Shown here: in pieces, positions 2,188-26,110 of the stretch
Position numbering within the stretch: the stretch's first letter is position 1
Layout of the letters: every line of letters begins with the position of its first letter
Virus record (IMG/VR): IMGVR_UViG_3300032116_001165
Location: 1-26,110 of that record
From: a virus
DNA: 26,110 nucleotides
Direction: 5' to 3' (one strand)
Notes under the pieces: model-generated
What the model was told of the DNA's origin: nothing
What the model saw: only the letters and a program-made list of their open reading frames with translations
The model's database searches: none
Translations under genes and position numbers: made by a program

Positions 2188-2619
2188 TTACTCCAATGCA
2201 TTATTTACCGTAGAGAACCAAATATTTTGATTGTCTCCTGACGTGGTAATAGTAGGGGCAAGACTTGGTTGTTCAGTTAAGTTCAACATCATTGGAACTC
2301 CTTCACAATCTTGTTTGAGTCCAGCCAATGGGTCTGCATTGCCATGCATTTCAAACACACCTTCTGACTCGGATCTAAACTCAAACTCCCATGCTGTGTG
2401 TTTTTTCTCAGGCACAGTGAGATCAACGGGTTGTGTTCGCAAACTTATAATTTGCAAGAGTGTTTCCCAATTGCGTTGTTGGTTTCGCGAATGATTCCAG
2501 TCATGTTGGTTGTGTACAGTCTGTCCGGCTCGATCCACAAAAGGAATCTCACTTGATCTGAAGTGTCCGGTTACACCAGTGAGACTGCAATCAAAAAGGG
2601 TACGGCATATGATCTTCAT
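2188..2619 (-). CDS. Conserved phage-type hypothetical protein (143 aa)
   Basis: The product begins MKIICRTLFDCS and is a mixed alpha/beta protein with several Trp and His residues in its first half. ATG 2619 is preferred over an in-frame TTG at 2640 because a TTAAATA late motif lies eight bases before the ATG. The next gene starts two bases after the stop. I recall proteins with a similar N-terminus (MKIICkTLFDCS) in marine T4-like phages but cannot name a function. There is no obvious Shine-Dalgarno site, so this may be one of the leaderless-type starts in the window. Confidence 0.7.
   Translation of the reverse strand: MKIICRTLFDCSLTGVTGHFRSSEIPFVDRAGQTVHNQHDWNHSRNQQRNWETLLQIISLRTQPVDLTVPEKKHTAWEFEFRSESEGVFEMHGNADPLAGLKQDCEGVPMMLNLTEQPSLAPTITTSGDNQNIWFSTVNNALE
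2202..2208 (-). promoter_or_regulatory. Late-promoter-like motif GTAAATA
   Basis: GTAAATA on the minus strand is placed 16 bases before the coiled-coil gene start, upstream of its GGAG ribosome site. It matches the TAAATA core used by T4-type late promoters. There is no independent support. Confidence 0.35.
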
Positions 2620-2627
2620 TCTGTGAG

Positions 2628-2634
2628 TATTTAA
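2628..2634 (-). promoter_or_regulatory. Late-promoter-like motif TTAAATA, 8 bases from ATG
   Basis: TTAAATA on the minus strand lies between the upstream terminator and the start of the 143-residue gene, exactly where a new transcription unit must begin. With T4-type spacing, transcription would start at or next to the ATG. Confidence 0.45.
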
Positions 2635-2638
2635 TGCC

Positions 2639-2673
2639 AAAAAGAAACCCTGGAGTTTTTAATTCCAGGGTTT
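2639..2673 (-). terminator. Rho-independent terminator after the small beta-rich gene
   Basis: AAACCCTGGA (2645-2654) pairs perfectly with TCCAGGGTTT (2664-2673) around a 9-base loop. Read on the minus strand the 10-bp stem is followed by C and five T residues. It sits 18 bases after the stop of the gene at 2691, the right place to end that transcript. A short T run on the other side could give weak termination on the plus strand too. Confidence 0.9.
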
Positions 2674-2690
2674 TGACGATCGCTAACTGA

Positions 2691-3098
2691 TTACAGGTTA
2701 GTGAATGTAGCTGATGCAGCAACGTTGGCTGTTGGGATACCAATGTTCAAGCCACCTGTTGCGTTGGCTGTTTGAGCGGCTGCAACCAATGTTGTTGTGG
2801 TGTAAGCACCACTTGGATAGATAGCCAAGTTGATTGTACCAGCTGTGGCACCAGCTTGGTAAATTGCGATTGTACCAAGTTGTTGAACTGCCGTCAAAAC
2901 GTTGTTCAAGTAACCGTTAACGTTACCAGCGTTGGTCAACGCGGCGTTAGCTGTCAAAGTGAAGAAGTCAAGTTTTGGACCTTGGATCTGAACTGGACCT
3001 TGAGCTGCTACGTTAGCTGTGCCTGCGATGGAACCGTTTGCCACATCCAGTGCAAATACTGGTTGTGTAGTTCCGTTTACTTTTGTAAATGTTGCCAT
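2691..3098 (-). CDS. Small beta-rich, Ala/Thr-rich probable virion protein (135 aa)
   Basis: The product, starting MATFTKVNGTTQP, is rich in Ala, Thr, Asn, Gly and Val, has no Cys or Trp, and looks all-beta. It is free of charged clusters, as in decoration, tail or other abundant virion proteins. It has its own promoter-like motif (CTAAATA), a 42-base leader with AAGGAAA, and its own strong terminator. A private, well-insulated transcription unit of this kind suits a highly expressed late gene. No family can be named, and the structural role is inferred from composition and transcription layout. Confidence 0.8.
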   Translation of the reverse strand: MATFTKVNGTTQPVFALDVANGSIAGTANVAAQGPVQIQGPKLDFFTLTANAALTNAGNVNGYLNNVLTAVQQLGTIAIYQAGATAGTINLAIYPSGAYTTTTLVAAAQTANATGGLNIGIPTANVAASATFTNL

Positions 3099-3140
3099 GA
3101 TAAATTTCCTTTAAGTTAGTGGCCTCTATGGACCTGCTTT

Positions 3141-3147
3141 TATTTAG
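3141..3147 (-). promoter_or_regulatory. Late promoter CTAAATA for the small beta-rich gene
   Basis: CTAAATA followed by AA lies 42 bases upstream of ATG 3098, in a true intergenic gap, and is followed by a good Shine-Dalgarno site (AAGGAAA). Together with the terminator at 2639-2673 it frames a one-gene transcript. T4-type late promoters have a TATAAATA core. Confidence 0.55.
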
Positions 3148-3161
3148 CCAGTTTGGAAAAA

Positions 3162-5066: not shown

Positions 5067-5067
5067 T

Positions 5068-5844
5068 TTATTCTGCAGCCCTTTGTAGGCCTGTTAGTTC
5101 TGCAATTCTTGGATCGGTTATTGATGTAATACCCAATCTTTGTACGGCTTGTTGAAGCGAGGCTATTTCAGCATTGTCAAACTTTGCGGCATTTGCAAGT
5201 TGTTGTGTTTGTGAACTTATTCCTTTTACCGCGCCTGCGCCACCCACTCCTCTTCGACCAGTATCATAGGCCATTATATTCTGTGCTGGCAATATCCCCA
5301 TGCCAACCAACTGAGTAAACAAATTTGCCACGGCTTTGGGGTCAGTATTATTCAATGTAGCGTTGTAGATTGCATCTATAGATTTGTCAATGTCAACTAT
5401 GATATCTTCAGCATTGTCTTTAAAGTTGGGATCACTGACAAAGGTTGGTATGTTTTTGTAGTCTGAACCTTGACGCCCGATCATTTTGTTAACTAGGTCT
5501 TGAAGATTGGTTTTGAGAGTTGCGATACTGGGCTGGGTTACTTGACTGAGATTGGTAGGAGGGTTACCACTGGAATCTTTACTGTTGGCCAGGAAGTTTT
5601 GCACAGTTTGTTGCCAGGCAGTTTGCATGGTAGTGGCCAGTGTTTTGGCCGCCGAGCTGTTGGCCAATGCCTGAAAGCCTTGTTCGCGATTTTGAGTATC
5701 ACCATATTGCGGTGTTACGTCTTGGCCAAACGCCTGGGTCATTAAACTTTTGCCCAGAGCGGATCCTATACCGCTGGCCACAGCTCCTGCGGCTCCCACT
5801 ACTTCGTTAATTTTGCGTGGTCGTGTTAATTCATGAATCTGCAT
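5068..5844 (-). CDS. Probable internal virion protein (258 aa)
   Basis: ATG 5844 is chosen because AGGAG lies six bases upstream; the frame extends further but only through the overlapping gene. The protein starts MQIHELTRPRK (Ile-His-Glu at 3-5). A Gly/Ala-rich hydrophobic stretch follows at about residues 14-30, then a long helical, Gln/Asn-rich body with a glycine patch near residue 195. There is no catalytic motif. The N-terminus resembles the short leader of head-packaged phage proteins, and the Gly/Ala stretch could be membrane-active. It is followed one base later by the fusion nucleotidyltransferase gene, so the two are almost certainly co-expressed. Function is unknown. Confidence 0.7.
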   Translation of the reverse strand: MQIHELTRPRKINEVVGAAGAVASGIGSALGKSLMTQAFGQDVTPQYGDTQNREQGFQALANSSAAKTLATTMQTAWQQTVQNFLANSKDSSGNPPTNLSQVTQPSIATLKTNLQDLVNKMIGRQGSDYKNIPTFVSDPNFKDNAEDIIVDIDKSIDAIYNATLNNTDPKAVANLFTQLVGMGILPAQNIMAYDTGRRGVGGAGAVKGISSQTQQLANAAKFDNAEIASLQQAVQRLGITSITDPRIAELTGLQRAAE

Positions 5845-6079
5845 TGGTTCTCCTAACTGAACGCGAGAACTTGCCAGCATCTTTGGTACGTATTGCATTG
5901 AGCAATTTACGTGTGAGATTGTCAGCTTGTTCTGCACCAAACTCTGCTTCGATTTGTTCTATCAGTCGTATGGCGCTGGATATAATGCTGTCGGCCCGAG
6001 TTTCAATTATCAGGCGGCGATCACGCTCTACATACAACGAGTCTAGTTCTTCTAGTAAACTTCGGGTCTTTTTCTGCAT
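5831..6079 (-). CDS. Small helical protein (82 aa)
   Basis: An 82-residue, almost wholly helical and highly charged protein starting MQKKTRSLLEELD, with heptad-like spacing over residues 5-60, suggesting a coiled-coil dimer. It overlaps the next gene by 14 bases and carries that gene's ribosome site within its own coding sequence. It has a CTAAATA motif 19 bases upstream. No family is recognised; scaffold or structural accessory roles fit the neighbourhood. Confidence 0.65.
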   Translation of the reverse strand: MQKKTRSLLEELDSLYVERDRRLIIETRADSIISSAIRLIEQIEAEFGAEQADNLTRKLLNAIRTKDAGKFSRSVRRTNADS

Positions 6080-6098
6080 TCGATCTGGGCCTTTGGAT

Positions 6099-6128
6099 TA
6101 TTTAGTGCTTTTTAGATTCTAATAAATA
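6099..6128. promoter_or_regulatory. Divergent late promoters (CTAAATA minus, AATAAATA plus)
   Basis: In the 69-base gap between divergent genes, CTAAATA is on the minus strand at 6105..6099 (19 bases before ATG 6079). AATAAATA is on the plus strand at 6121..6128 (20 bases before ATG 6149, with AGGA in between). The back-to-back pair accounts for transcription of both flanking virion-type units, and the location makes chance matches less likely. Confidence 0.6.
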
Positions 6129-6148
6129 TCTATTATACAGGAATCCCC

Positions 6149-7735
6149 ATGACAAGTCAAATTAACCCAAACAACGTAGATGGTACATACCCAGTTGCCG
6201 GACAACCCAACAACACACAAGGGTTCAGGGACAACTTTACCAACATCAAAACCAATTTTAGTTATGCAGAAACTGAGATTACAGACTTGCAAAACAATGG
6301 TATTTTCAAAGCTGCCTTGAGTGGTACCACTCTAAACAACAACATGGCAGATAACTTAATATACGCCGTCAAATTACAAGATGTCAGCTACACTTATGTG
6401 CAAAACACAGCAAGTGCTGGTTCCGTTCCCATTGACTATAGTGCTGGACAATATCAGTTGATTTCAACCACAGGGCCTATCAGTTTGAGTTTTGCTAATT
6501 GGCCAGTGAGTGGCACAGCAGGCACTGTACAAATTGCAATAAATGTCACTAGTACCGCACATACATTGACCTTGCCTGCCTCGGTTACTCTAGGCACAAC
6601 TGGCATCCAAGGATATTCAGGCGGTGTTATTACATTTGCCGCAACTGGTACCTATCAGTTCTCATTCAGCTCTGTAGACTATGGTGCTACCATTACCATC
6701 TACGATTTAAATCGTCCGTTAAACTATTTTACCAACACAGTCAATATAGTCGCAACTACTCCTAGTACTAGCAAAACAACCGGTGCATTGACTGTGGCAG
6801 GCGGTGTGGGCATTGGTGCTAACTTGAACGTAGGTGGAAACCTTAGCACATACACCACTGCTAATGCTGTGGCATTCCAAGCCCTGGACACTGGTCTTGT
6901 GTCAATCTATGCTCCTGTTGTGGCGGCCAACACAGGCGGTGCTCTAAACATTGTGGGCAGTACCAGCGGCGCATATCAACCCATTTACAATGCAGGTAGC
7001 ATGCTTCATATCACCGGCAATGATGGTGTGAGTGCCAGGGTAACTGTTGACTCCTTTGGTACTAGTCAACAGTCAGCATTTGTACAACGAGCAGCCAGAG
7101 GCACAGCGGCTGCACCCACAGCAGTTCAAGCCAATGACATCATAGCCAGGATAACTGGATCAGGATATGGCAACACAGGATATGTGCTGGGCGCAGGCAA
7201 CATAGGAACCCTGGGCATTGACTTTGTGGCCATGGAAACCTATACTACTACCTCGGCTGGTAGTGCATTAAAGTTGTACACATCACCTATTGGTGCTGTG
7301 ACCAAAACACTATCAGCCAACGTCACTGCCAACGTCACAACATTCCCGGCCAACGTTTTTACTAGTGGAGGCAATATCCTGGTCACCGGTGGTGCAGGTG
7401 GAGTAGGATATACTGTAGGTACTGGTGGCACAGTTGCTCAAACAGGTAACAAGGCCACTGGTGTTACACTCAACAAACAGACTGGTGAGATCACCATGCA
7501 GGCCACTGCATTGAGTGCGGCTACTATAGTGAGTTTTGTATTGACCAACAGTACAATTGGCGCAAATGACTTACTGGTATTACAACATCAAAGTGGTGGT
7601 ACCCTGGGTGCATACACTATCAATGCCGCATGTGCAGCCGGTAGTGCTACTATCTATGTTAGAAACAACACCGCCGGATCACTAAGTGAAGCCTTGGTAC
7701 TACGCTATGCTGTGATCAAAGGCGCTGTGGCTTAA
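6149..7735 (+). CDS. Tail-fibre-like structural protein (528 aa)
   Basis: The N-terminal 55 residues (MTSQINPNNVDGTYPVAG, then a helical NFTNIKTNFSYAE region) resemble an attachment domain seen on many aquatic phage fibre proteins. The middle is Gly/Thr/Ala/Val-rich beta sequence, including a TGALTVAGGVGIG segment near residue 210. Roughly residues 415-528, from the GGTVAQTGNKATGVTLNK stretch onward, match a C-terminal module common at the ends of phage tail proteins. It should be a trimeric, elongated virion protein for host recognition. It is on the plus strand against the surrounding genes, with its own AATAAATA late motif and an AGGA ribosome site. Its stop codon directly abuts the stop of the convergent gene. 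Confidence 0.8.
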   Translation: MTSQINPNNVDGTYPVAGQPNNTQGFRDNFTNIKTNFSYAETEITDLQNNGIFKAALSGTTLNNNMADNLIYAVKLQDVSYTYVQNTASAGSVPIDYSAGQYQLISTTGPISLSFANWPVSGTAGTVQIAINVTSTAHTLTLPASVTLGTTGIQGYSGGVITFAATGTYQFSFSSVDYGATITIYDLNRPLNYFTNTVNIVATTPSTSKTTGALTVAGGVGIGANLNVGGNLSTYTTANAVAFQALDTGLVSIYAPVVAANTGGALNIVGSTSGAYQPIYNAGSMLHITGNDGVSARVTVDSFGTSQQSAFVQRAARGTAAAPTAVQANDIIARITGSGYGNTGYVLGAGNIGTLGIDFVAMETYTTTSAGSALKLYTSPIGAVTKTLSANVTANVTTFPANVFTSGGNILVTGGAGGVGYTVGTGGTVAQTGNKATGVTLNKQTGEITMQATALSAATIVSFVLTNSTIGANDLLVLQHQSGGTLGAYTINAACAAGSATIYVRNNTAGSLSEALVLRYAVIKGAVA

Positions 7736-8854
7736 TTACAAATACCGACGATAAAACTCAGCAACTTCGGGGAAAGTTTTTTTCCAATCCTGCTCCCGGA
7801 GTTGATCAAATTTTTGTGTTTCTTTAAGAAAAGTTTTAATAACATCGGGGCGTTCTTGCCAATTTGGAGACAGCATGTGAATCATGTCTGTTCCTTGCAA
7901 AGCGTCAACATACTCTTGCGTGATTGTGTTAACGTTAAGATAACCATGCTCAGCAAGTTGTGTGGTATAATTCGTTGGATCGCCTTCTCGATTGGTGGCA
8001 AAATTATTTTTGACCCAATTGCCAACTTCATTGTAATAATACAGATTCAAACAACTGGTGCATTCTTGTACAAAAAACATCACATTGCCGGGAAGTTTTT
8101 CTCTTAGTTCTAAAATGTTATCTGCAACTTGATTCCAACTTGCAGGCCATCTCAAATATTCAAATTTGTCACCAACTCCGTCTATACTGATCATCAGTTT
8201 GACCAATTTAAATTTATCAATTACTTCAAACCACTTTGGATCAATGGGCTGAGTACCATTGGTTTGAAATCCCAATTCTAATTGAGTTTTTGAGTTTGGT
8301 ACTAGTGTTGTCAACAGTTGAGCAGTTTGCCAATAGTTAGTACCTAGTAATGTTTCGCCACCACAAAATTGCACCATTCCAAGATTTTCTAGATTTAAGT
8401 TTTTGAGAATTGTGTGTATTCTGTTTATGTTATTGGTCTGTGGCAACACCGATTGGATCAAGTTGTTTTCTTTTAAATGTTTTGACCAAAATGTACTAGA
8501 GTGCGGACCACATGTTCTGCAGGCCAAATTACAACTACGGTCAAACAACAAGTCAATGCGTTGCGGTCCAGATAAGTTTGTTTTTGTTCCAAATTTATCA
8601 ATCATTGACTTTCTAAAACTTTTTATTCCAACTTTTTCCAATGTCTCGCACTGTCCGCATCCAGGAAGCCATTGATTGGTATCATTGACCTGTCTGTTTC
8701 TATTGAGATTTTTGCCAGTCCAGTCAATTATATCCTGCTCAACAAAAGTCAAAGGAGTGGTGCTCAGACAGCATTGGTTATATGCTAAATTGTCGTTGGT
8801 CTTTAGATTGACGTTTAACCCGCCGTGAATCATGGGACAAAAGATGTCTGTCAT
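7736..8854 (-). CDS. Radical SAM protein with N-terminal cysteine (twitch-like) region (372 aa)
   Basis: The radical SAM signature Cys108-x3-Cys112-x2-Cys115 (CNLACRTC) binds the 4Fe-4S cluster that cleaves S-adenosylmethionine, and CGGET further on is the SAM-binding GGE motif. Before the core, Cys6, Cys28-Cys29 and Cys66-x2-Cys69 form an N-terminal cysteine region like that of the phage family called twitch-domain radical SAM, which holds a second cluster. The substrate is unknown; relatives modify peptides or sugars. By eye the gene is richer in A+T than the helicase beside it, hinting at separate origin. It overlaps the helicase start (ATGA) and so is probably co-transcribed with primase and helicase. 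Confidence 0.85.
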   Translation of the reverse strand: MTDIFCPMIHGGLNVNLKTNDNLAYNQCCLSTTPLTFVEQDIIDWTGKNLNRNRQVNDTNQWLPGCGQCETLEKVGIKSFRKSMIDKFGTKTNLSGPQRIDLLFDRSCNLACRTCGPHSSTFWSKHLKENNLIQSVLPQTNNINRIHTILKNLNLENLGMVQFCGGETLLGTNYWQTAQLLTTLVPNSKTQLELGFQTNGTQPIDPKWFEVIDKFKLVKLMISIDGVGDKFEYLRWPASWNQVADNILELREKLPGNVMFFVQECTSCLNLYYYNEVGNWVKNNFATNREGDPTNYTTQLAEHGYLNVNTITQEYVDALQGTDMIHMLSPNWQERPDVIKTFLKETQKFDQLREQDWKKTFPEVAEFYRRYL

Positions 8855-10308
8855 GAAGATTTAATCTGTCCCAGCAGTTGTTTTAATTTTGCACTTTGAA
8901 CATCTGCTGTTACTTTGCCTGTGTCCTGTGGGCCTTTTTCCCAGGCAGGAGTTCCTGTGGCTCGTTCCCATGGTGGAGATGATTCACCATCCCCTCCGGT
9001 ATCAGCAGTCTTGACCTGGCTTTTGGCCTTGATTGAGTCCATGATACTGCTTTGGGGTCTGTTGTATCCAGTGCCCTCGTCTCCACCTTCATCAGTAATG
9101 CGCATGGTTTCAATGTTGTACTCCAAATCAATCTTTTGACCAACGCCGGTCGAGCTTCGAGACTTCATACATTGTATTTGATACTTGCCACGCTCTTTCA
9201 TTGCACGTGACGTAAAGATACCAAACACGTTGTCTGCTGTGTTAATTTTAGAGATACCACCCGAAATATGCGAGTGATCAAATTCAATTTCCTCTACTGC
9301 ACTTCTATTCAACTGGCTTGCAGTGACCATTAGCACTGCCAGTTCCTTGGCCAAGTTGCGTAGTTCTTCTGACACATACTTGTCTTTTACAAACAAGTCA
9401 TTGGGCGACACCTTGGCACTCACCGGCATCAGCAAGTCCAAGTAGTCAATCATCACAAAGTCTACCTTTTTGCCTGTTTGAATTTGATACTCTTTCAAAT
9501 ACGCACGAATGTCGTTGATGTTGCTCTGTGCCGGCAAACCTTTCACTTGATAGTTGCCCGACTTCTTGGCCACAAGTTTGACCTTGAGTTCGGTGGTATC
9601 CATGTCACGTCTAATATCCTTGGTGCTCATGTTGGTTAACATGGCATCTGTTCGCAAACTTGTGAGTTCTTCTGATAGTTCTAGTGTAATGTAAACGCCA
9701 CTCAGGCCTTGTTGCAACCAGTTCAGTGCAATGTTCATCATCACAAGACTCTTGCCCGAACCCGATCCGCCAGCAAAAATGTTTAGTTCACCTCTTGAGA
9801 ATCCGCCATACAACAATCTATCCAGTTGTGGCCATCCTGTGCTTACTTGTCCACCCGAGTTGAAGTATTTCTCAATGCGAGCCTTAGGATCAGCAAAGTA
9901 GTCTGTGCCCATGTCTTTAGTGAGTGATATTTGTACTGCATCTTTGATGAGTTTTTCAACGGGTTCAAATTCGCCTTTCTCCAGCAAGTCTGCTGATTTC
10001 AAAATAGCACGTTCAAGTTCCTGACGTCGAGTGAATGCCTCAAACTCGCCCATGAACCAGTCAAAGTGACCTTCGTTCAAGTCTGGCACTGGTTGCAGTT
10101 TGACACCTGTGGTTGCAGAAATCTGCTGCCTGTCAGGCATGGTCTTGTGTTTGTCTGAGTGTTCTTTGATGAACTCAGCCGCTGGCCTTAGACTCCGGTC
10201 AAAGTTCTGCGGGTTATAGATGTTTTGAACACGCACATAACTTGTTGCGTCTTCCAACATCATTTCTAGAAATAGTCTTTGGACATCAAGTCCGTAGTCT
10301 TTTAACAA
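8851..10308 (-). CDS. 41: Replicative DNA helicase, DnaB/gp41 type
   Basis: This is the ring helicase that unwinds the fork and recruits primase. The N-terminal ~140 residues are a helical interaction domain. The RecA-like core has Walker A GGSGSGKS at 180-187, Walker B hydrophobic strand ending in Asp288 (VMIDYLDLL), a TASQLNR sensor around 329-335, and a CMKSRSSTG segment near 380 in the arginine-finger/DNA-loop region. Length (485 residues) is close to T4 gp41 (475). The C-terminal 60 residues are Gly/Ser/Pro-rich and probably a flexible tail. Its start overlaps the end of the primase gene by 23 bases, preserving the helicase-primase partnership in one operon. Confidence 0.92.
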   Translation of the reverse strand: MLKDYGLDVQRLFLEMMLEDATSYVRVQNIYNPQNFDRSLRPAAEFIKEHSDKHKTMPDRQQISATTGVKLQPVPDLNEGHFDWFMGEFEAFTRRQELERAILKSADLLEKGEFEPVEKLIKDAVQISLTKDMGTDYFADPKARIEKYFNSGGQVSTGWPQLDRLLYGGFSRGELNIFAGGSGSGKSLVMMNIALNWLQQGLSGVYITLELSEELTSLRTDAMLTNMSTKDIRRDMDTTELKVKLVAKKSGNYQVKGLPAQSNINDIRAYLKEYQIQTGKKVDFVMIDYLDLLMPVSAKVSPNDLFVKDKYVSEELRNLAKELAVLMVTASQLNRSAVEEIEFDHSHISGGISKINTADNVFGIFTSRAMKERGKYQIQCMKSRSSTGVGQKIDLEYNIETMRITDEGGDEGTGYNRPQSSIMDSIKAKSQVKTADTGGDGESSPPWERATGTPAWEKGPQDTGKVTADVQSAKLKQLLGQIKSS

Positions 10309-11275
10309 GTTGTTTCTTCCTTATTTCTATTTTAATTCGGCTAGTTTCTCTTGCTTGCATAATAGTTAGCAAGGCCCCTAGTCGACCTAGTTTTATTACA
10401 GCATCGTTGACATCTTTGCAACCCGCAGGCCACTCAGGTATGCTTACTGCCCAGCCCAGTTCCACAGCACGGTCAATAAGTTCTACACCTGCGACATCTT
10501 GGTCTGGCACCACAGTGACTTCACGTCCAAGACTGCGAATCAATCTTGCTTGTGCGTCACTTATGGTGTTGTGCATCACGGCCAGGCCACCAATTGACAG
10601 TGCATCAAATATGCCTTCCATCACCAACACATGTTGCCAATTGGCATGTTGCAAGTCTGTTCCAAACACATAGCCTGGTTGTGAGTGATTGATATACCGG
10701 GGCTGTTTGTCATCCAAGAACCTAGCACACCAGCCTACCACCCGGTTGTCGTATGTGAACGGAACCAACACAAACGGCCTGACCCAATGAACACCATCTG
10801 TTTTGATAGAAGTCATTATGGGAAAGTCTTCTGGTACTCTACGTTTTTGGATATAGTTCCAGTATGCAGGGAACTCTGGTGTGACTACTTCTGAGAACGG
10901 AGGGAAGTCATCTGCTTCTTCAAACTCAATAGTACTGAGTGCGTTGAATACTCGTTGTCGATCTTCCAGTATGCCGTGTATGCTACGGTGACGCAGGCTT
11001 TCAAGATTGAGCATGTCAATCTCATTGTCTGGCACACCCATCCATCCCAGTAATCTTCGGGCTTTGAAACTAACTGTGCGTCCTAGAATAAAACTGGCTG
11101 TGTATGCGCAGTTGAAGCAATGGTAACTCCAACCTGATTCAGTCGCTTTGATCCCACCACGTCCACGTTTGTCTGCACTGTTACCATTATGGGTGCAACA
11201 TACCGCATTGAAACTCAACCAACCCTGTGGACTGGGCTTTCTTTTTGCGGGCAGGTAAGCAAGGACGTCTAGCAT
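10286..11275 (-). CDS. 61: DNA primase, gp61 type
   Basis: This primase makes RNA primers at the replication fork with the gp41-type helicase encoded next. The N-terminal zinc-binding domain shows Cys26/Cys27, His29 and Cys53-x2-Cys56. The Toprim catalytic domain follows: the conserved Glu220-Gly (LVMEGIFDAL) and Asp258-x-Asp260 (VPDQDVAG), with KDVNDAV at about 287-293. At 329 residues it is close to T4 gp61 (342). A sigma70-type promoter sits immediately upstream with its -10 six bases from the ATG and no Shine-Dalgarno site, so the message is probably leaderless. Confidence 0.9.
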   Translation of the reverse strand: MLDVLAYLPAKRKPSPQGWLSFNAVCCTHNGNSADKRGRGGIKATESGWSYHCFNCAYTASFILGRTVSFKARRLLGWMGVPDNEIDMLNLESLRHRSIHGILEDRQRVFNALSTIEFEEADDFPPFSEVVTPEFPAYWNYIQKRRVPEDFPIMTSIKTDGVHWVRPFVLVPFTYDNRVVGWCARFLDDKQPRYINHSQPGYVFGTDLQHANWQHVLVMEGIFDALSIGGLAVMHNTISDAQARLIRSLGREVTVVPDQDVAGVELIDRAVELGWAVSIPEWPAGCKDVNDAVIKLGRLGALLTIMQARETSRIKIEIRKKQLVKRLRT

Positions 11276-13344: not shown

Positions 13345-14018
13345 TACCATCCTGCCTTGTTCAATATATCTTTCACATACTCTTGATCCGCTGGGTAGTT
13401 GGTAAACTTCTTTTGCCAAGCATCTGAATCAACATAGGGCCAGACCATGGCCACTTGTTCCGTACTCAATTCGCTCAGAAACTTTTGTCCTGATTCTGAA
13501 TTGTAAATTACCCAAGGACTGATACGTCCGGCTGTGACAGCATAGCACAAGGCGTTGGTGTTGCCATAGCGCATCCAGTCATGTGCGGGATTGCCTGTCT
13601 CCTCGGCCCAACGCATGCTGTGTTCTATTGCTCGAGTCAAAGCGTCATCCACCGCTTCCACACGCAAGTATTCTATCAAGTACTCTGTGTACACATTGTC
13701 ACTACACCAATGATCAATTTTCTTTTGTGCTTTCAGTAACCAGGTCATGAAACGTGCTGGTGCGATTACATTGGAGTTTACACAGTAGTTGCCAAACTTG
13801 ACAAATGCTCGATAATAAGGACTGTCACAAAAGTCATCGTGTGTTTTGTTCTTGGCCGATCCTTGCATGGTTTCGTAAAATTTGATGTAGGCTTGAAATC
13901 CCATTCGAACGCCTGCTTCATCTCGAGCCAAGCGTCTGCGTTTGGGCTCACAGGAATGCACCAACAGCGACGTTTCTTTAATGAAAGTCTTTTTGCAATA
14001 CTCGCACACAAAACTCAT
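13344..14018 (-). CDS. Zinc-finger protein paired with the DnaE-like gene (224 aa)
   Basis: The N-terminus carries a CCHC finger: Cys5-x2-Cys8 then His21-x-Cys23 (FVCEYCKKTF), followed by a basic KRRR stretch, typical of nucleic-acid-binding fingers. The remaining 190 residues are helical and rich in Trp, Tyr and Phe, with no known catalytic motif. Start and stop are coupled to both neighbours (ATGA upstream, TAATG to the DnaE-like gene), which suggests a two-protein complex in which this member may recognise DNA. The pairing is inferred from layout. Gene reality is well supported. Confidence 0.75.
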   Translation of the reverse strand: MSFVCEYCKKTFIKETSLLVHSCEPKRRRLARDEAGVRMGFQAYIKFYETMQGSAKNKTHDDFCDSPYYRAFVKFGNYCVNSNVIAPARFMTWLLKAQKKIDHWCSDNVYTEYLIEYLRVEAVDDALTRAIEHSMRWAEETGNPAHDWMRYGNTNALCYAVTAGRISPWVIYNSESGQKFLSELSTEQVAMVWPYVDSDAWQKKFTNYPADQEYVKDILNKAGW

Positions 14019-14743
14019 GTTAATAGTTTACGCTCTTGAATGTAGTTTGTCAAATATTCATTTAGTTTTTGGTGATGTCCGCCAGCCGGGTGGGTCATGT
14101 CTGGCGGCACATATGGTGCATTGAGTCCATAATCTTTTGGCGGTACGCCTTGTTCAGCTTGCCAGGCAGTGGCTCGCCATCGAAATTTTCCCACAATTTC
14201 AGGTTGATCAAACAAGGCCAGTCTGGGATTATCTAGATACGATTGATACAAGTTGTCGGCCTGTTGAAACATAATCACACGATGACCTCGACTTTTTAAA
14301 TCAGTTATGGTTGCCAACATGCGATACATCAGATCTTCTATGCGATCCAATATAGAATATACTTCGCTTTTGAGTTTTGTTTCCACAAATCGATCTGAAT
14401 CTTTTTTTGTCCATTTGTATTGCCAACGTGACTGAAATTCCTGGTTTTGTGGATTTGCCCAGCGACCTTCAAATTCGTTTTCTGGTTCGCAGATTGGGAT
14501 CTCTAACCTTGACAAAAACGTCATACCCAGCACATAAAGTACAGGCTGAGTTGTCTGGTAACTGTGTTTGAGAGTAGTGCGTAGTATTCTGCTGTTTGCA
14601 CTACCGCCTATGGCCAACGTTGATGCTTGTGGTATATTAAATTTGCCTATAAATCCTAGGCGGCGAGCTAGATCAATATGTCCTCCACCGTGGGCATAAC
14701 TTTCCATATAACTACACCCGTTGACAACCACATGTGCAATCAT
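14015..14743 (-). CDS. SGNH-hydrolase-like protein (242 aa)
   Basis: The first strand ends in GCSYM (residues 9-13), where Ser11 fits the block I nucleophile. GGSAN at 46-50 fits block II, and Asp215-x2-His218 (DMTHP) fits the C-terminal block V. Together these suggest a GDSL/SGNH esterase-like fold. The substrate is unknown; family members remove acetyl or acyl groups from sugars and lipids, but phage versions with GCSYM are uncharacterised as far as I know. ATG 14743 overlaps the stop of the gp62-like gene as ATGA. It is one of two such proteins in this operon. Confidence 0.75.
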   Translation of the reverse strand: MIAHVVVNGCSYMESYAHGGGHIDLARRLGFIGKFNIPQASTLAIGGSANSRILRTTLKHSYQTTQPVLYVLGMTFLSRLEIPICEPENEFEGRWANPQNQEFQSRWQYKWTKKDSDRFVETKLKSEVYSILDRIEDLMYRMLATITDLKSRGHRVIMFQQADNLYQSYLDNPRLALFDQPEIVGKFRWRATAWQAEQGVPPKDYGLNAPYVPPDMTHPAGGHHQKLNEYLTNYIQERKLLT

Positions 14744-16368: not shown

Positions 16369-17073
16369 TCAATTCCAATCCTCAGTGAGTTCCAGAAGTG
16401 TGTTTAAAAATCCGTCATGAGCGGCTTGTCCATTGTGTGTAACACTACGCTCAAAATCAAAAACACCGTTTGGCATCTGGCAAGGAAGGCGGTCAGACGG
16501 CCATACTTTTGTCACCCAGGACCAATCCATGTCTCCCAGTCCGTGTGGTACGTACACAAAGGGTATTTGATAATGTTGCAGTTTTCGTAATCCATCGGAT
16601 ATGACAAAATAATTTTCTTGGCGCTTTAAATTATTATTGTGCAAGTCTGCCACATAGTTTTTGATTGCCAGGCGCTGATGGTCATTCAACACAGTTTCGT
16701 GTTTTTTATTCAAAAAGTTTTCTATCACATCACTCACAACCAATGGATTTTTTGATTTGATGTTGTGTTCACTTAGGCTACGATATCCTGTGTACAGAAT
16801 ATTGTTTAATTTGACCCAGCTGTAATTCTGCACCCCTGGTGCTGCCACATCCATTCTGTTGCTAGAGGTGCATCCTACTATTACAAAGTCAGCTCCGCGT
16901 TCAATAGCACTGTCAATTTGTAACCGTATGGCAAAGCATGTGGCGGCGGCTCGAGCCAGACTAACATGTAAAAAATTTTTACGTTCAGCATACAGTTGTA
17001 AAAAACTTGTGACTTCACCCGGAGGCGAGTCTAGACTCATATAACTGTCGCCACAAGTTACTAACTTTTTCAT
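16369..17073 (-). CDS. Second SGNH-hydrolase-like protein (234 aa)
   Basis: CGDSYM at residues 7-12 (Ser10) matches SGNH block I. Near the C-terminus, THNGQAAHD at 212-220 supplies His in the block V position, though the usual Asp-x2-His spacing is altered, so catalysis is less certain than in the other copy. ATG 17073 overlaps the uvsW stop (ATGA); the longer upstream frame would run inside uvsW. It shares only the GxSYM opening with the protein at 14015, so it is at best a distant relative rather than a fresh duplication. Confidence 0.7.
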   Translation of the reverse strand: MKKLVTCGDSYMSLDSPPGEVTSFLQLYAERKNFLHVSLARAAATCFAIRLQIDSAIERGADFVIVGCTSSNRMDVAAPGVQNYSWVKLNNILYTGYRSLSEHNIKSKNPLVVSDVIENFLNKKHETVLNDHQRLAIKNYVADLHNNNLKRQENYFVISDGLRKLQHYQIPFVYVPHGLGDMDWSWVTKVWPSDRLPCQMPNGVFDFERSVTHNGQAAHDGFLNTLLELTEDWN

Positions 17074-18539
17074 GCTATCTTCATCCACTCCAGTTTCTCT
17101 GCAGAGAAAGGGTAGTTGGCTTCCTTGTAGAACTGTTTGCGTTTGGTCAGGTGTCGCTTGGCAAACTTGCAGGTGCTGGTGATGTCCCAAATTTGCACAT
17201 GATCTTTGTCCTCTGCTTTTCGGATGCCCCTACCAATACTTTGGATAACCCTAACAAAGCTCTTACCGGGCTCAATAAGCACCAGATTAAAGATTCTCGG
17301 TATGTTAATTCCAACCGCTGCCACACCGTAAGTGGCCACAATGATTTTGTCTGTTGAGTCTGCGACTTCGTCGTATTCATCTTGTCTGTCCTTTGCTTTG
17401 GTTGCCCCGCTTACAAACACAGCACGATCGCCTAGTCGTTCTACTAGTGCATGTCCTGCAGCCACCCTGTCCACAAGTACCAGGGTGTTGCCTGTTTCGT
17501 TTACCCGGCGGATCAGTTCAGCCATGGTATCCAGGCGGCCTGATTCTTCCAGCAGATATTTGAGTTCTGATTGATACTCTTTGTACTCAACATGATCTAC
17601 CAACTGCACAATGTTCACATGACAGTTGGCCAGTACACCTTGTTGTTGCAGTTCATTGGCACTGAGCCTGCCAATAACTGGTCCAAGTCCTACCAACAGG
17701 GCTTGGCTTTCAAACTTCTCTTTGGGAATAGTTCCAGTCAACCCCCACCGAATTGGCACTCTAGCCATCACACCAGTTAGCAAGGTTTTGAGTGCATCTG
17801 CTTTGGCCATATGTACTTCGTCTACAATAACACATACCACACCTTCAAGAAACTCACCGATGGTTACTTCACCTGTGCCTGCTTTGGTATTCTTTAACAG
17901 CACGTTCAAACTTTGCCAGGTACAAATAGTGTGCTGGCGGCCGTACTCTTTTCTATCGCCAAAGAACACACCCACATCCTGTTCCATGTTGATGTAATCT
18001 TTTTCTGTTTGTGTCACTAGACTTTTGTTGGGCACAATCACAATGCTTCGCCCATACGGTGTAACCGCATTGCTCAGGGCCGCTGTCATGATTGTTTTAC
18101 CTGCACCTGTTGCCACCTCTTGCAGGCACTGCGGGTTGGCCAGGAAGTTGTTGACGATTTCTACTTGATAGTCTCGCATGATGATAGGCTCACCCGCAGC
18201 AGGGTGTCCTTTGGGCCACTTGATATGTGCAAACGAATCCTCACGCACTTGTTCAAATGCAAACGTGGTTGAGTAGTCTCTTTGATCATCTACTTCGATA
18301 TCATAATTGAACTTGTCAAGTATGGGAATGATCTCGGGTAACAAGTTTGTGTATGTGCTACCGCCTAACTGGAAGTATGAAACCTTGCCGTCCCAGCGTC
18401 CCAGTCTAACTGCGGGCAAATAACGTGCATATGGAACATCATATTTGAAAGCCGTGACCAAGGCTTTGCGAGCATCTAAATCTAGTCCTTCTAGTCGGAT
18501 GTTTACTTCATCCCGGATTTGTATTGTGCATCTTTTCAT
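17070..18539 (-). CDS. uvsW: UvsW-type RNA-DNA and recombination helicase
   Basis: UvsW is a superfamily 2 helicase that unwinds R-loops and branched DNA and shifts T4-type phages from origin- to recombination-dependent replication. Visible motifs: Walker A ATGAGKT at 143-149, DEVH at 240-243, TGT at 268-270, and motif VI QSIGRGIR at 433-440. The ~120-residue N-terminal domain resembles the DNA-binding domain of the family. At 489 residues it has the expected size. ATG 18539 overlaps the upstream stop as ATGA; an alternative start eight codons earlier is less likely. Confidence 0.92.
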   Translation of the reverse strand: MKRCTIQIRDEVNIRLEGLDLDARKALVTAFKYDVPYARYLPAVRLGRWDGKVSYFQLGGSTYTNLLPEIIPILDKFNYDIEVDDQRDYSTTFAFEQVREDSFAHIKWPKGHPAAGEPIIMRDYQVEIVNNFLANPQCLQEVATGAGKTIMTAALSNAVTPYGRSIVIVPNKSLVTQTEKDYINMEQDVGVFFGDRKEYGRQHTICTWQSLNVLLKNTKAGTGEVTIGEFLEGVVCVIVDEVHMAKADALKTLLTGVMARVPIRWGLTGTIPKEKFESQALLVGLGPVIGRLSANELQQQGVLANCHVNIVQLVDHVEYKEYQSELKYLLEESGRLDTMAELIRRVNETGNTLVLVDRVAAGHALVERLGDRAVFVSGATKAKDRQDEYDEVADSTDKIIVATYGVAAVGINIPRIFNLVLIEPGKSFVRVIQSIGRGIRKAEDKDHVQIWDITSTCKFAKRHLTKRKQFYKEANYPFSAEKLEWMKIA

Positions 18540-21416: not shown

Positions 21417-22064
21417 ATGAATATTGTGGTCAACGATTATTTGACATGGGAGCGGGCAGAACAAGCAGACTCTGCGCCCGAACCTATTCCCTGTGCCCGA
21501 CACTTTCCCGAATGGTGGAGAAACCTGCGTGGGGACCTACGTCATTATGTGCCCGAGTCAGGTGATCACAGAAATCATACAGCACGATTGTGTCACGGAC
21601 TCCGCGGAGCAAGTCAATTGGGATATACCATTCCCTTGGACTGCACATTGCACAGCGGTATCGCACAAGGCTCCTGGCGGCATGGTCCATTACTGCAAGA
21701 AATGTTACACGGCACGCCCTGGGCAGAAAAAGTCAATGACACGTATGTGTGGGAGAGACCCCGTATACTGGCCTGGCCATGGCGAGCCAAAATGGCCCCA
21801 GGTTGGAGACTACTAATGAATGACTATCCACTGGAGTGGAGAGATGACTTTCATTGCTTTACTGGATTTGTTGAAGCCAATCATGGATCAGGTTTTTGGG
21901 GGTGGAGTAATCATATGGATCCTGCATTTAACTACTACAACGTAGAGACTGTGGTCATAACAAAAAAACAAACACAGATTGAGTCTGGCTCTGCGGTGTT
22001 TTCCATGGTACCTGTATATGACCCGGACTATGTTCCCAAACCCTACGCTGCATATCCTTTTTAA
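21417..22064 (+). CDS. Hypothetical protein, possibly DUF6065-like (215 aa)
   Basis: Starts MNIVVNDYLTWERAEQADS; ATG 21417 is preferred over an open frame from 21351, which would run back through the opposing promoter. Many Trp, His and Pro residues are present. The middle has a pattern like DUF6065 proteins (ILAWPWRAKMAPGWRLLM, then FTGFVEANHG and later VPVYDP), a family of unknown function seen in phages and bacteria; this match is from memory and uncertain. It is one of three plus-strand genes, lacks a clear promoter or Shine-Dalgarno, and its stop overlaps the opposing gene's stop within TTAA. Confidence 0.65.
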   Translation: MNIVVNDYLTWERAEQADSAPEPIPCARHFPEWWRNLRGDLRHYVPESGDHRNHTARLCHGLRGASQLGYTIPLDCTLHSGIAQGSWRHGPLLQEMLHGTPWAEKVNDTYVWERPRILAWPWRAKMAPGWRLLMNDYPLEWRDDFHCFTGFVEANHGSGFWGWSNHMDPAFNYYNVETVVITKKQTQIESGSAVFSMVPVYDPDYVPKPYAAYPF

Positions 22065-22501
22065 CGAGCCGTTGGCACAACGATTGTGCCTGTAAACTCA
22101 ACTGTTTGTCCAGCAAGTATTTGTAAACTACCATTTCCTTGATACTGAGCATTATCGCCTTGGTGGCCAGATATGTCATAGGGTTGCCACCCAGCCTCAT
22201 CCCAAACAGGCTGACTGGTGATTCGAAACTGCCCCCAAGACATAGAATAACCACACACCAAGACATCACTGCCCTGGGCTGTGATTTTTAAATCAACATC
22301 ATATGAGTTGGTGTTTGCAACAGGTGTTGTGAGTGCAATATCCAGTGATATTTTATGTGCGCCCACCTGGGAAGAACTTGGTACCCAGTTTATAGTCGGA
22401 GTTAACTCAAATTCGTAAGTGTTTTCGCCCACGTTAACCAAAACCACAGCATTGGCACCTGACCGTGCATGGCAATCTAACTCAAGTGTTGATGTATACA
22501 T
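22061..22501 (-). CDS. Beta-rich hypothetical protein (146 aa)
   Basis: Starts MYTSTLELDCHARSGANAV; AGGAAA sits about nine bases before ATG 22501. The sequence alternates hydrophobic and polar residues along most of its length (YEFELTPTINWVPSS, then KISLDIALTTPV), as in an Ig-like or jelly-roll beta sandwich. No signal peptide or catalytic motif. It follows the glycosyltransferase/radical SAM cassette by ten bases, so it may be a carbohydrate-binding or substrate protein for it, but that is only context. Confidence 0.65.
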   Translation of the reverse strand: MYTSTLELDCHARSGANAVVLVNVGENTYEFELTPTINWVPSSSQVGAHKISLDIALTTPVANTNSYDVDLKITAQGSDVLVCGYSMSWGQFRITSQPVWDEAGWQPYDISGHQGDNAQYQGNGSLQILAGQTVEFTGTIVVPTAR

Positions 22502-22511
22502 ATTTGATTTC

Positions 22512-23615
22512 CTATTGGCTGTTGACTCTTTGCCGTGACAATGCAATCAGACGTTGTTTATTGTATCTACAAATTTGTCTACTGTTTTCGTATAATTCAA
22601 GTTGGTCACTTGCGGACATGTTGGCAACATTTTTTACGATTGTCATGATTCGTTTATACCTATCCGGCCCTTCACATGTATCGTAACCTTCGTCCCACAG
22701 ATCACCAAAGGTTTTGAATCCCAACCTTTGCATGTGTTGTAAAAAATGTTGGGGCGCATAAACAATCAGTGGTTTTTCTGCCATTATGGTTCTTATGGTT
22801 TTTTCGCTGGGGGTAAATGTCAATCCCCTGGTCATTGTTTCAAATGTAATTTCAAACAGATATTTACCACTTAGGTTTATTAAATTTTGAATAAGACTCA
22901 CGTTGCGATTGTCACCGTTGTCTGTGTCTATGTCTATGTATTGGTCAGTGATTTTGCAACCATCTACTGAATTGATGGGCATGTTTGCGCAAAAACTTTG
23001 AAAATGTTTATATGTAAGCATTTTCTCAATGGAATTTGATAGTGGCATCCAATCATCCAGCTGATCAAAAAACATATGAGCTTGGTTAAAAGGTTGAAGC
23101 ATCGGTGGCGCTGACTCAATCATTTTACTGATCAAACATTTTTCTCTCAATGCAGAATCGCACCAGATATCATACAACGCCAACAATCTTGGTGTGGTTC
23201 TTCTTCCCACAAACAATGCCCAGGGTCGCCAGTCTGGGTCTAGGTTTCTAGCACTATCTGTTTGATATGTTTTACTTCTAACAAATTCATCACTGACTTT
23301 GTATTGGCGCCAAAACAGATTGATCCAAGGTGCATCATCTGCAACAGCATTGGGACTGTAGATAAAAACAGAATCTGTTGATCTACCAGTTTCCTGCATG
23401 ATCTTTTGAACTGTTTCTACTACCCCGGCCCGAGTAAGACTCAGTCCTTCGAATTGCACATGAATTACCACATTGTGCAAGGCTGGTGCAGCTCGAAATG
23501 CCGCACAAAATTCTTGTTGTTTGATCCAATAGTCTCCGTCGGCCCAGAGATACACCACAGTTACATTGGGTTGACCCAGCAACTGCGACATATGAGTTGT
23601 GTTAAAATCCGTCAT
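22512..23615 (-). CDS. Putative glycan-modification protein (367 aa)
   Basis: An alpha/beta protein starting MTDFNTTHMSQLLGQPNV. The C-terminal third holds LTFTPSEKTIRTIMAEKPLI, then LQHMQRLGFKTFGDLWDEGYD. This resembles the EKT...KPF...LGFKTF..WDE pattern in uncharacterised proteins near polysaccharide genes, where EK may contact a nucleotide-sugar phosphate (as in GT-B folds). The N-terminal half has no clear motif. It overlaps the radical SAM gene as ATGA. Glycosyltransferase-like is the best guess; certainty is low. Confidence 0.65.
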   Translation of the reverse strand: MTDFNTTHMSQLLGQPNVTVVYLWADGDYWIKQQEFCAAFRAAPALHNVVIHVQFEGLSLTRAGVVETVQKIMQETGRSTDSVFIYSPNAVADDAPWINLFWRQYKVSDEFVRSKTYQTDSARNLDPDWRPWALFVGRRTTPRLLALYDIWCDSALREKCLISKMIESAPPMLQPFNQAHMFFDQLDDWMPLSNSIEKMLTYKHFQSFCANMPINSVDGCKITDQYIDIDTDNGDNRNVSLIQNLINLSGKYLFEITFETMTRGLTFTPSEKTIRTIMAEKPLIVYAPQHFLQHMQRLGFKTFGDLWDEGYDTCEGPDRYKRIMTIVKNVANMSASDQLELYENSRQICRYNKQRLIALSRQRVNSQ

Positions 23616-24457
23616 CGTTGTACCACCCGAAGCCGATGGTCAATTGCAGATTCATGGTGCTGGGCCGAAGGACACTGTTCGCAAATTGCATGAGCATGTC
23701 CAAAGTTTTCCACAAACTGATCAACTGCACTAGCATGAGAATCGAGTCCAATGCTACCATTGGTCTCATTATCAAAATATTTTTTCCACACAGCCAAGTT
23801 AGTGTTACCATGTGTTTGCCATGCCGACTGTGTCAGGGCCGATGTTGAACATTTGTAGATTCTACCTTGCCACAACATGGGGCATGTTTGTTGGTGACAA
23901 TTTGCGTAGGCCTCCTTGGGGTCAGAACGCCAAGGTTGCATGTTTGTGTATGTGCCCCGAAATGTTTGAGTAAACTTTGTGGGTGTGTTTATTTGCAATC
24001 TTAACCCGGTATCTGTGATCCATCGGTCAATGCCATATTCACGTATGGGTTCCCAACGATAGGCGCTACGTAACCTATCTATAGTGTCAAGTACTGCACC
24101 ATCAGTGTGGTTGGTTATTTTAAGAACAGCATTGCCGTCCTGATACAACCACTCCACAACGTCCCAGTGTTTTTCAAGTAATAGTGCATTGGTTGGAAAA
24201 CGTATACGACTTTCAGGCAACAATTTGCGCACACCCTCAAGCCATTCAAGCACACGTGGATTTATCAAGGGCTCACCTCCCATGAATCCAATGTCCTCAA
24301 TTGAGATTTTTTCCAGCCATTGTTGCAACCACTGCTGAGTTGTAGACCAGTCTGCATAGCCTTGATGACGATAATCACTGTATGTGCTACATCCTGCGCA
24401 ACTTAGATTGCACACCTGTGTAAGCATTATTTCTACAAAAGGTAATACTGGTTTCAT
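23612..24457 (-). CDS. Radical SAM enzyme with C-terminal auxiliary cysteines (281 aa)
   Basis: Cys16-x3-Cys20-x2-Cys23 (CNLSCAGC) binds the radical SAM cluster, and GGEPLI follows at the SAM-binding position. C-terminal Cys residues (CHQQTCPM, then YKCS, then CEQCPS) look like a SPASM/twitch auxiliary cluster. Such enzymes usually modify peptides or sugars. ATG 24457 overlaps the upstream glycosyltransferase stop (ATGA), so it belongs to one transcript with two glycosyltransferases. It is distinct from the other radical SAM protein at 7736-8854, whose extra Cys residues are N-terminal. The substrate is unknown. Confidence 0.85.
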   Translation of the reverse strand: MKPVLPFVEIMLTQVCNLSCAGCSTYSDYRHQGYADWSTTQQWLQQWLEKISIEDIGFMGGEPLINPRVLEWLEGVRKLLPESRIRFPTNALLLEKHWDVVEWLYQDGNAVLKITNHTDGAVLDTIDRLRSAYRWEPIREYGIDRWITDTGLRLQINTPTKFTQTFRGTYTNMQPWRSDPKEAYANCHQQTCPMLWQGRIYKCSTSALTQSAWQTHGNTNLAVWKKYFDNETNGSIGLDSHASAVDQFVENFGHAHAICEQCPSAQHHESAIDHRLRVVQR

Positions 24458-25257
24458 TGCCAATGTTCCCGGATCACGGAGTCTGTGATCTGATGTGGTT
24501 TAGGGCGGCCATGAAATACCACAACTGCTGTGTCTGAAGAAATAACAGTGCCCGACCCAGGTTGATAATGGTGACGACGTTTGAAATTATAGCCACCATC
24601 CAAACATTGCCAACGATAGCTTTGAAATTTACTGTCATCAAAGAATCTGCGCTGGTTGTGATTTATTGTGTGATTTAAAAAATCCTGGTCGCCTGGGAAA
24701 CCTTGAATCATTTGCGACACAGGACCAGAATTAAATTTTTCCCATACCCAACTAAACTGAGTCACATCAAACCACATTACACTGGAGTTCATGGAGTTGA
24801 TTCGAGGATTTTGTAGATATCTAAAATCTCTAATGGTCCAAAAATAGTCTGTAGGCAGTGCGGTGATCCATTCCAGGTTGCTGACCACTACCACATCAAG
24901 ATCCAAGTACAACAAGCGTCCTGAAAAATGTGCAGGATTAAACAACTGCATCTTGTACCACCAGGACTTTTTTGGGCCGCCGAATCCCCAATCATCCAGG
25001 ATGTGCTTGATCATGTGTGGTGGCACTGACCTATCATGTTCAGTGTACACATGAAAACGTATGCCGCCTGGAAGTTGGCGTGTTAGCATGTTATACAGTC
25101 GTTCCACATACTCCCAGTCATAACCAGTGCCGTGAATAACACAAGCACAGTCAATCACTGTGGGGTTGCTCGCTGTGACCGATGGGTTTCTTTTTGATTC
25201 ACGATGTGCTTGTCTAGCCGCACGATGCTGTTGCTTGAGTTCTCGATCGGTTTTCAT
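24454..25257 (-). CDS. Glycosyltransferase with DxD motif, GT-A type (267 aa)
   Basis: Asp119-Leu-Asp121 (YLDLDVVV) is the metal/nucleotide-sugar-binding DxD of GT-A transferases, after a KSWWYKMQLF segment and before PGDQDFLN, which is shared by GT8-like and related transferases. The first 25 residues are very basic. ATG 25257 overlaps the GT17-type stop (TAATG). Donor and acceptor are unknown; the cassette context suggests sequential sugar transfer to a shared acceptor. Confidence 0.8.
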   Translation of the reverse strand: MKTDRELKQQHRAARQAHRESKRNPSVTASNPTVIDCACVIHGTGYDWEYVERLYNMLTRQLPGGIRFHVYTEHDRSVPPHMIKHILDDWGFGGPKKSWWYKMQLFNPAHFSGRLLYLDLDVVVVSNLEWITALPTDYFWTIRDFRYLQNPRINSMNSSVMWFDVTQFSWVWEKFNSGPVSQMIQGFPGDQDFLNHTINHNQRRFFDDSKFQSYRWQCLDGGYNFKRRHHYQPGSGTVISSDTAVVVFHGRPKPHQITDSVIREHWQ

Positions 25258-26045
25258 TATAGCGCCGGGGCATGATTCCAATATTGTGGATAGTTTTTCA
25301 ATACTGATTGTACTTGTTCAGGGTATGCTGTATCAATGGTTTGTGTGGTACACTTGTGATTGATTGCTGATATTGTGTCCAGGCGTTTGAATGCTTCAAG
25401 TATTTGATCTGGATCTCTATGTTGGCTTTCAATGCAACTTCGTGCTTTGTTTTTTACCAATTCATCTGTGCCAATCCAGGTCCAGTGCCATCCCACTGGT
25501 TCTTTGAGTCCCACACAATGACTGCGGTCTTTGCGTTTGACGTTTTGTCCTTTGTACAATTCATGTGGGGTAACGAACATGCGCTTTCTAGCCGCCACAC
25601 TGCCTTTCCAGCCACGATCAGCCCGCTGGTCAAACCTATACATGTACATTTCAAATCCACAGGTAACTGGGCGATCATGAGTGTTCATGAGATCAACGAT
25701 GGCCGGCCACTTGGTAGGGTCAACAATTTCATCTAGGTCGCCGTGTATAATAATATCATCTGCGCTGTATTGATCTATAGCAGGTTGCAGACCTTGTCGC
25801 ATCATGGTTTCACAAATCAAGTTGGTTTGGTCAGCAGTCAACTCCAGCGTGACCACTTGAATTCTGTTAGGATACTGTGCCTGATACCGCGCCAGGTTGT
25901 TGGTTAGATTATACGGCTTGGGTATGCCACTAAACGTTCTACTTGCTTCCAGCACTATCCAGCGGTCAACAAAGTGATTGGTAATTGCTAGATGTATATC
26001 CAGCATGTCAAATTCGTCATTGAATAAAAATGTATCTATAATCAT
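25257..26045 (-). CDS. GT17-family glycosyltransferase (262 aa)
   Basis: The opening MIIDTFLFNDEFDMLDIHL, then VLEASRTFSG, matches glycosyltransferase family 17 (N-acetylglucosaminyltransferase III-like proteins, also common in marine phages). Asp103-Leu-Asp105 (HGDLDEIVDP) is the expected DxD. GWHWTWIG further on fits the acceptor-side motif. The start overlaps the previous partial gene (TAATG). The acceptor is unknown. Confidence 0.85.
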   Translation of the reverse strand: MIIDTFLFNDEFDMLDIHLAITNHFVDRWIVLEASRTFSGIPKPYNLTNNLARYQAQYPNRIQVVTLELTADQTNLICETMMRQGLQPAIDQYSADDIIIHGDLDEIVDPTKWPAIVDLMNTHDRPVTCGFEMYMYRFDQRADRGWKGSVAARKRMFVTPHELYKGQNVKRKDRSHCVGLKEPVGWHWTWIGTDELVKNKARSCIESQHRDPDQILEAFKRLDTISAINHKCTTQTIDTAYPEQVQSVLKNYPQYWNHAPAL

Positions 26046-26110
26046 TAGAATTGAAATATTATTTGGTATTCATCGTGGATGGGATGATGATTCTTGGTTT
26101 CAAGATATTC
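26045..26110 (-). CDS. C-terminal end of an upstream gene (runs off window)
   Basis: Twenty-one codons (EYLETKNHHPIHDEYQIIFQF) are open from the window edge to a TAA that overlaps the GT17 ATG as TAATG, the same junction used throughout the operon. Too short to assign a function; its coupling suggests it belongs to the modification cassette. Confidence 0.6.
   Translation of the reverse strand, partial: EYLETKNHHPIHDEYQIIFQF

Follow-up and report, generated by a model that had tools for sequence, protein, structure and literature searches.

Introduction

Clusters of genes for the modification of lipopolysaccharide (LPS) and capsular polysaccharide are described in cyanophages and jumbo phages, of the P-SSM2 type (PMC7824862), and glycosyltransferases of a host-recognition cluster are known from pelagimyophages (PMC7029224). 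The usual reading of a phage glycan cluster is a set of glycosyltransferases accompanied by ordinary nucleotide-sugar enzymes. Here we analyze an operon of overlapping genes at positions 22512-26110, minus strand, of the 26,110-base IMG/VR virus record IMGVR_UViG_3300032116_001165 (the window, by which we mean this whole stretch of DNA). Together with its relatives, it shares with the cyanophage, jumbo-phage and pelagimyophage clusters a set of several glycosyltransferases, a nucleotidyltransferase, a cupin isomerase and methyltransferases, in some cases also carbamoyltransferases, and variability between related phages. Radical enzymes are not mentioned in the jumbo-phage overview (PMC7824862), whereas here a radical S-adenosylmethionine (SAM) enzyme of the twitch type stands fixed beside a glycosyltransferase-like partner, a 367-amino-acid protein that we call W367.

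The closest counterparts of the radical SAM enzyme belong to antibiotic synthesis. SpeY has a dehydrogenase role in spectinomycin synthesis. BtrN oxidizes a cyclitol alcohol, 2-deoxy-scyllo-inosamine (PMC9012708). The phage enzyme has the overall fold, the CX3CX2C core and, by prediction, the one-cluster twitch domain of both, but carries five invariant extra cysteines where BtrN has four cluster ligands, and is found among phage glycan genes with 17-18% identity to SpeY. Radical SAM genes as such have been seen in viruses before: a T4-like viral genome has 12 of them (PMC5332604) and they are present in a Campylobacter phage (PMC3322345). No description of this radical SAM-glycosyltransferase pair was found in the open-licence literature searched, and none of the papers found describes radical-made sugar chemistry in viruses. 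We propose, with a probability of roughly 0.6, that the locus is a phage glycan-synthesis or tailoring operon with the twitch radical SAM enzyme and the GT-B-like W367 as its core, and with a product that most likely ends up on the host surface.

Results

The radical SAM gene and W367 form a conserved pair in phages

The radical SAM enzyme (281 amino acids; 23612-24457, minus strand) and W367 (22512-23615, minus strand) are encoded by adjoining genes. A profile scan of IMG/VR returned 344 stretches that encode relatives of the radical SAM protein, from which the best 79 loci were kept; the first step of the scan uses exact patterns, and distant members can be missed. Among 56 loci with distinct radical SAM proteins, 33 have a W367-like gene immediately adjoining the radical SAM gene. 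On the shared strand, 18 of these genes are upstream and 16 downstream, and two cases have both arrangements or a difference in strand. Of the 112 flanking positions, 34 hold a W367-like gene on the same strand; at a distance of three to six genes this is so for 4 of 355 positions (Fisher p=3.6e-19). The adjacency expected by chance is about 6%, an approximate value at 850 bp per gene (97 W367-like genes in 2.6 Mb, 12 related records). W367 did not bias this sample, since the radical SAM gene was the sole query by which nearly all loci were retrieved.

When the proteins are clustered at 70% identity, 18 of the 33 clusters keep the pairing. It should be noted that such clustering does not fully remove the phages' shared ancestry; that both gene orders occur speaks for something beyond inheritance. 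In the clade of the window, the order of radical SAM gene, W367, a 146-amino-acid protein and a convergent gene, p237, is kept wherever the region is complete, including on contigs of 128 and 364 kb. The two families thus travel together as a conserved core pair that is phage-restricted as far as searched. Cellular genomes, scanned with the same kind of exact-pattern first step, yielded only distant radical SAM relatives (about 21-35% identity, with higher values over short stretches) and no relative with the W367 profile. In annotated phages, W367, the 146-amino-acid protein and p237 had no tblastn match.

The radical SAM enzyme has a predicted twitch domain and a SpeY-like fold

The 281-amino-acid protein is a member of the radical SAM superfamily: it scores above the cut-off for PF04055 (Radical_SAM, E=1.5e-8), contains the characteristic motifs, and its model matches radical SAM structures. 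In an alignment of 41 relatives, 40-95% identical to the window protein and with two rows from annotated phage records left out, the invariant residues are C16, C20 and C23 (CX3CX2C), the GGEP motif, which is of the SAM-binding type, and C187, C192, C203, C259 and C262. The SPASM motif for the second auxiliary cluster reads CX2CX5CX3C-gap-C. Past the gap, the phage proteins have just C259-x2-C262 and no further invariant cysteine in the 41 sequences, which points to a twitch domain rather than SPASM. Twitch is a truncated SPASM domain with one auxiliary cluster, where SPASM binds two (PMC9012708).

The AlphaFold2 (AF2) model of the enzyme (predicted local distance difference test, pLDDT, 91) was compared with known structures using Foldseek. 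SpeY entries took ranks 1-4, with E values of 8e-12 to 4e-11 and template modelling (TM) scores of 0.66-0.67 over about 274 columns; the match at E 8e-12 and TM 0.67 spans nearly the full length, with a root-mean-square deviation of 3.6. MoaA (E 6e-7) and the peptide epimerase EpeE (E 3e-6, TM 0.5) followed at a clear distance, and SuiB, SkfB and BtrN also matched, behind SpeY. The same SpeY chain ranked first in a sequence-profile search (E=7.7e-17). The invariant cysteines and the full-length SpeY match place the enzyme in the twitch-domain class, with a single predicted auxiliary cluster. The SPASM-type label given to it by the original prediction is ruled out by the presence of only two cysteines in the last auxiliary segment.

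The phage family is also separate from N_Twi_rSAM (NF033640), a frequent family in phages of this kind that often adjoins the radical SAM/W367 pair: the proteins studied here have about 280 residues vs. 398 positions in the N_Twi_rSAM model, and the window protein reaches 37.1 bits over residues 7-106 vs. a cut-off of 170 bits. A second radical SAM gene of the window (7736-8854, minus strand) is a true N_Twi_rSAM member (176.4 bits, above cut-off); it is convergent with a gene at 6149-7735 for a 528-amino-acid protein whose sequence resembles that of a tail fibre.

W367 is a probable GT-B glycosyltransferase

W367 had no match in Pfam, NCBIfam or PDB sequence profiles, and its PHROG match was insignificant (E=0.05). 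Its AF2 model has a pLDDT of 76. The PDB structures matched by Foldseek were mostly GT-B enzymes, among them WaaG and the GT10 fucosyltransferases, with T4 alpha-glucosyltransferase among the weak ones; probabilities reached 0.98, with a best E of 4.3e-3 and TM of 0.3-0.4. The resemblance to WaaG and the GT10 alpha-1,3-fucosyltransferases is thus one of fold, with no significant sequence match and PDB E values above 1e-3. A viral fold library gave much stronger matches (E to 4e-18) to a large, unnamed phage family, one of them a 788-amino-acid protein named UDP-glucose/GDP-mannose dehydrogenase. The relative in locus L116 (608 amino acids) has an N-terminal fusion to a domain resembling an SGNH hydrolase, as judged by eye from the motif. 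From these observations we consider W367 a probable divergent GT-B glycosyltransferase, tentatively GT10-like, and prefer the name of a GT-B-like enzyme to the earlier label of a glycan-like protein.

Two further observations concern the W367 family. Its fold relatives are almost all unnamed and make up a large uncharacterized family of phage proteins, and its genes are multi-copy: G003 (364,404 bases) and each of eleven further records from related phages have 3-14 W367-like genes. An independent three-gene cassette, in which a W367-like gene is grouped with a different radical SAM protein and a protein of 291-296 amino acids, was seen in loci L005 (646-3549, minus strand) and L049 (3514-6384).

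The four-gene operon is a local arrangement around the pair

By gene content the window comes from a T4-like phage, with UvsW-like and DnaB-like helicases and a primase-like protein recognized by eye in the translations, and the operon is sited among its replication genes. Upstream of the core pair lie genes for a GT17-family glycosyltransferase (262 amino acids; 25257-26045, minus strand) and a GT8-like GT-A glycosyltransferase (267 amino acids, from the ATG at 25257; 24454-25257, minus strand). The GT17 stop and the GT-A start share a TAATG (25259-25255), and ATGA overlaps are found at the GT-A/radical SAM and radical SAM/W367 junctions. The operon stretch contains four stop-to-stop frames that are 260 codons or longer, whereas 200 mononucleotide shuffles gave an average of 0.0. 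The four overlapping genes of the original prediction are all present, and the fifth partner that it suspected of running off the window is real: the segment 26045-26110 (minus strand), which overlaps the GT17 start by TAATG, translates as EYLETKNHHPIHDEYQIIFQF followed by a stop and encodes the C-terminus of a methyltransferase of the Methyltransf_24 type, cut by the window end. The whole protein is encoded in the relative L002 (3067-3705), with an identical C-terminus and a match to PF13578 (Methyltransf_24) at E=6.6e-8.

GT17 family membership is clear (PF04724, E=1.8e-15, 57.3 bits vs. a gathering score of 26), and the protein has a GDLDE (DxD) motif. The GT-A protein matches phrog_1962, 'glycosyltransferase' (E=7e-25), and its alignment contains conserved DLD, GDQ and FHGxPKPH motifs; a PDB search found no relative of it. 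Neither is a core partner, to judge from their distribution. GT17 is confined to the window and its nearest relative L002 (1 of 16 records searched). In L002, L003 and L036-L044, GT-A precedes the radical SAM gene on its upstream side; it is absent from records G001 and G002. The expected co-occurrence of all four genes in relatives thus holds strongly for the radical SAM gene and W367 and fails for the two accessory glycosyltransferases. The overlapping four-gene operon is thus a local grouping, with a conserved pair at its centre.

Genes neighbouring the pair

The conserved block extends beyond 22512-26110. The gene for the 146-amino-acid protein (22061-22501, minus strand), which looks beta-rich from its sequence, begins ten bases past W367, and its end is overlapped by the convergent p237 (21417-22064, plus strand). 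The 146-amino-acid protein always follows W367 in the clade (6 loci) and is fast-evolving, with 37-80% identity. It has no relative in Pfam or PHROG and its PDB match is insignificant (E=0.6); speculatively, it is a candidate acceptor or glycan-binding protein. In the alignment of clade relatives p237 is 63-85% identical, and it has no Pfam or PDB relative.

The flank of the closest relatives (L002) encodes a cytidylyltransferase-mannose isomerase fusion, a GT8 protein and methyltransferases, the combination of glycosyltransferases and nucleotide-sugar enzymes that marks a phage surface-glycan modification cluster. Across phages, the neighbours of the radical SAM gene include other twitch radical SAM genes (19 loci), SGNH-like proteins, NAD epimerase/dehydratase and, in 13 loci, an amidinotransferase-like family whose C-terminal catalytic region matches AGAT and inosamine-phosphate amidinotransferase. 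A DNA polymerase region adjoins the gene in many phages; in L020 and L097-L105 the immediate neighbours are an 85-amino-acid gene and DNA polymerase. Six of ten bacterial relatives examined (L153, L154, L155, L158, L161 and L168) have GT2, TupA ATP-grasp or UDP-glucose dehydrogenase neighbours. Overall, glycan genes predominate among the neighbours in phages and bacterial relatives.

Relatives of p237 occur in loci L078-L085, where as many as four twitch radical SAM genes accompany them; W367-like genes are also found in L079-L081 and L083-L085, and the p237 loci read closely encode a NodU-type carbamoyltransferase (PF02543/PF16861) and an amidinotransferase. Clusters of this composition resemble a complex phage pathway for a small molecule or a glycan. 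In L025, a run of about seven radical SAM/twitch genes accompanies the radical SAM family studied here (2202-11087). In the window itself, SGNH-like motifs (GDSY and similar) can be read in the products of two further genes, at 16369-17190 and 14015-14743 (both minus strand), the first of which has relatives in other fetched loci.

Discussion

The sequences establish the gene order, the translational coupling, the intact SAM-cluster and auxiliary-cluster cysteines, the intact DxD motifs and the conserved pairing across many phages. A cassette for sugar-plus-radical modification, as originally predicted, is supported by the SpeY fold match and the radical SAM/W367 pairing. Oxidation or epimerization of a sugar by the radical SAM enzyme is moderately supported, by SpeY as the best fold and profile match together with the chemistry of BtrN. 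We propose that the enzyme would abstract hydrogen at a sugar's carbinol carbon, with the auxiliary cluster perhaps serving as electron acceptor to give a keto sugar, as with BtrN and SpeY, or that the sugar may be epimerized instead. W367 would transfer the sugar, already tailored or still to be tailored, to a growing glycan, and GT-A, GT17 and the methyltransferases would act as exchangeable decorating enzymes. The product would be a host-surface glycan (O-antigen or capsule) that may keep out competing phages. The substrate, the order of the steps and the acceptor in this scheme are inferences.

Several observations weigh against it. The radical SAM protein is only 17-18% identical to SpeY, and the shared fold does not fix the substrate because the peptide-acting enzymes EpeE and SuiB match as well. 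The assignment of W367 to GT-B comes from a medium-confidence model with no PDB match at E<=0.001 and no sequence match. The radical SAM gene has no adjoining W367 in L020 and L097-L105, where it lies beside DNA-polymerase-region genes, and four of the ten bacterial relatives examined have no glycan neighbour. No acceptor was identified in this analysis.

A host-surface glycan is the most likely product, with a virion or tail-fibre glycan as the next option. According to the latter, which we regard as rather unlikely, the same enzymes would build the tailored glycan on the tail fibre or on the adjacent 146-amino-acid protein, and not on the host surface. The 146-amino-acid protein does trail W367 throughout the clade, W367/twitch clusters adjoin tail-fibre-like genes (judged by eye) in L046, L050 and L078, and glycosylation of virions exists in mycobacteriophages, as cited in PMC12619734. 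However, in many relatives the pair lies beside genes of the DNA polymerase region and not beside tail genes, and the 146-amino-acid protein is restricted to one clade whereas the pair is widespread.

It is improbable that the radical SAM enzyme crosslinks or epimerizes a phage or host polypeptide, in the manner of ribosomally synthesized and post-translationally modified peptides (RiPP), with the glycosyltransferases glycosylating the product. Twitch/SPASM radical SAM enzymes are often peptide maturases, and EpeE, SkfB and SuiB match the fold, but SpeY is clearly the better full-length match and no maturase family was reached by the protein at its curated cut-off. Moreover, no conserved small precursor-like open reading frame was seen between the genes, which overlap and leave no space. 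The fold ranking and the absence of an evident precursor thus make modification of a peptide less likely.

Elaboration of a modified base in phage DNA by the glycosyltransferases and the radical SAM enzyme is very improbable. In its favour are the existence of phage DNA glycosyltransferases, the presence of T4 alpha-glucosyltransferase among the weak fold matches of W367 and the location of the operon among replication genes, but the idea is disfavoured by the finding of Tet_JBP in 0 of 19 related records (a search without positive control, in records that may be incomplete) and of thymidylate synthase/hydroxymethylase family enzymes in 3 of 19, with 16 of these possibly incomplete records lacking them. 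The peptide and DNA-base acceptors first considered are therefore weakened.

The preferred reading, a glycan-tailoring operon acting most likely on the host surface, has a broader and more tentative extension: radical SAM sugar-tailoring enzymes, each fixed to a dedicated GT-B-like partner, might form a family specific to viruses and give many uncultured phages keto or epimerized sugars on host-surface or virion glycans. The radical SAM enzyme and W367 offer a specific enzyme pair that is open to expression and testing. If our proposal is correct, phages would make sugars that their hosts may not have, using a pair locked together in at least 18 divergent sequence clusters, and this would matter for competition between phages, for receptor masking and for the recognition of virions.

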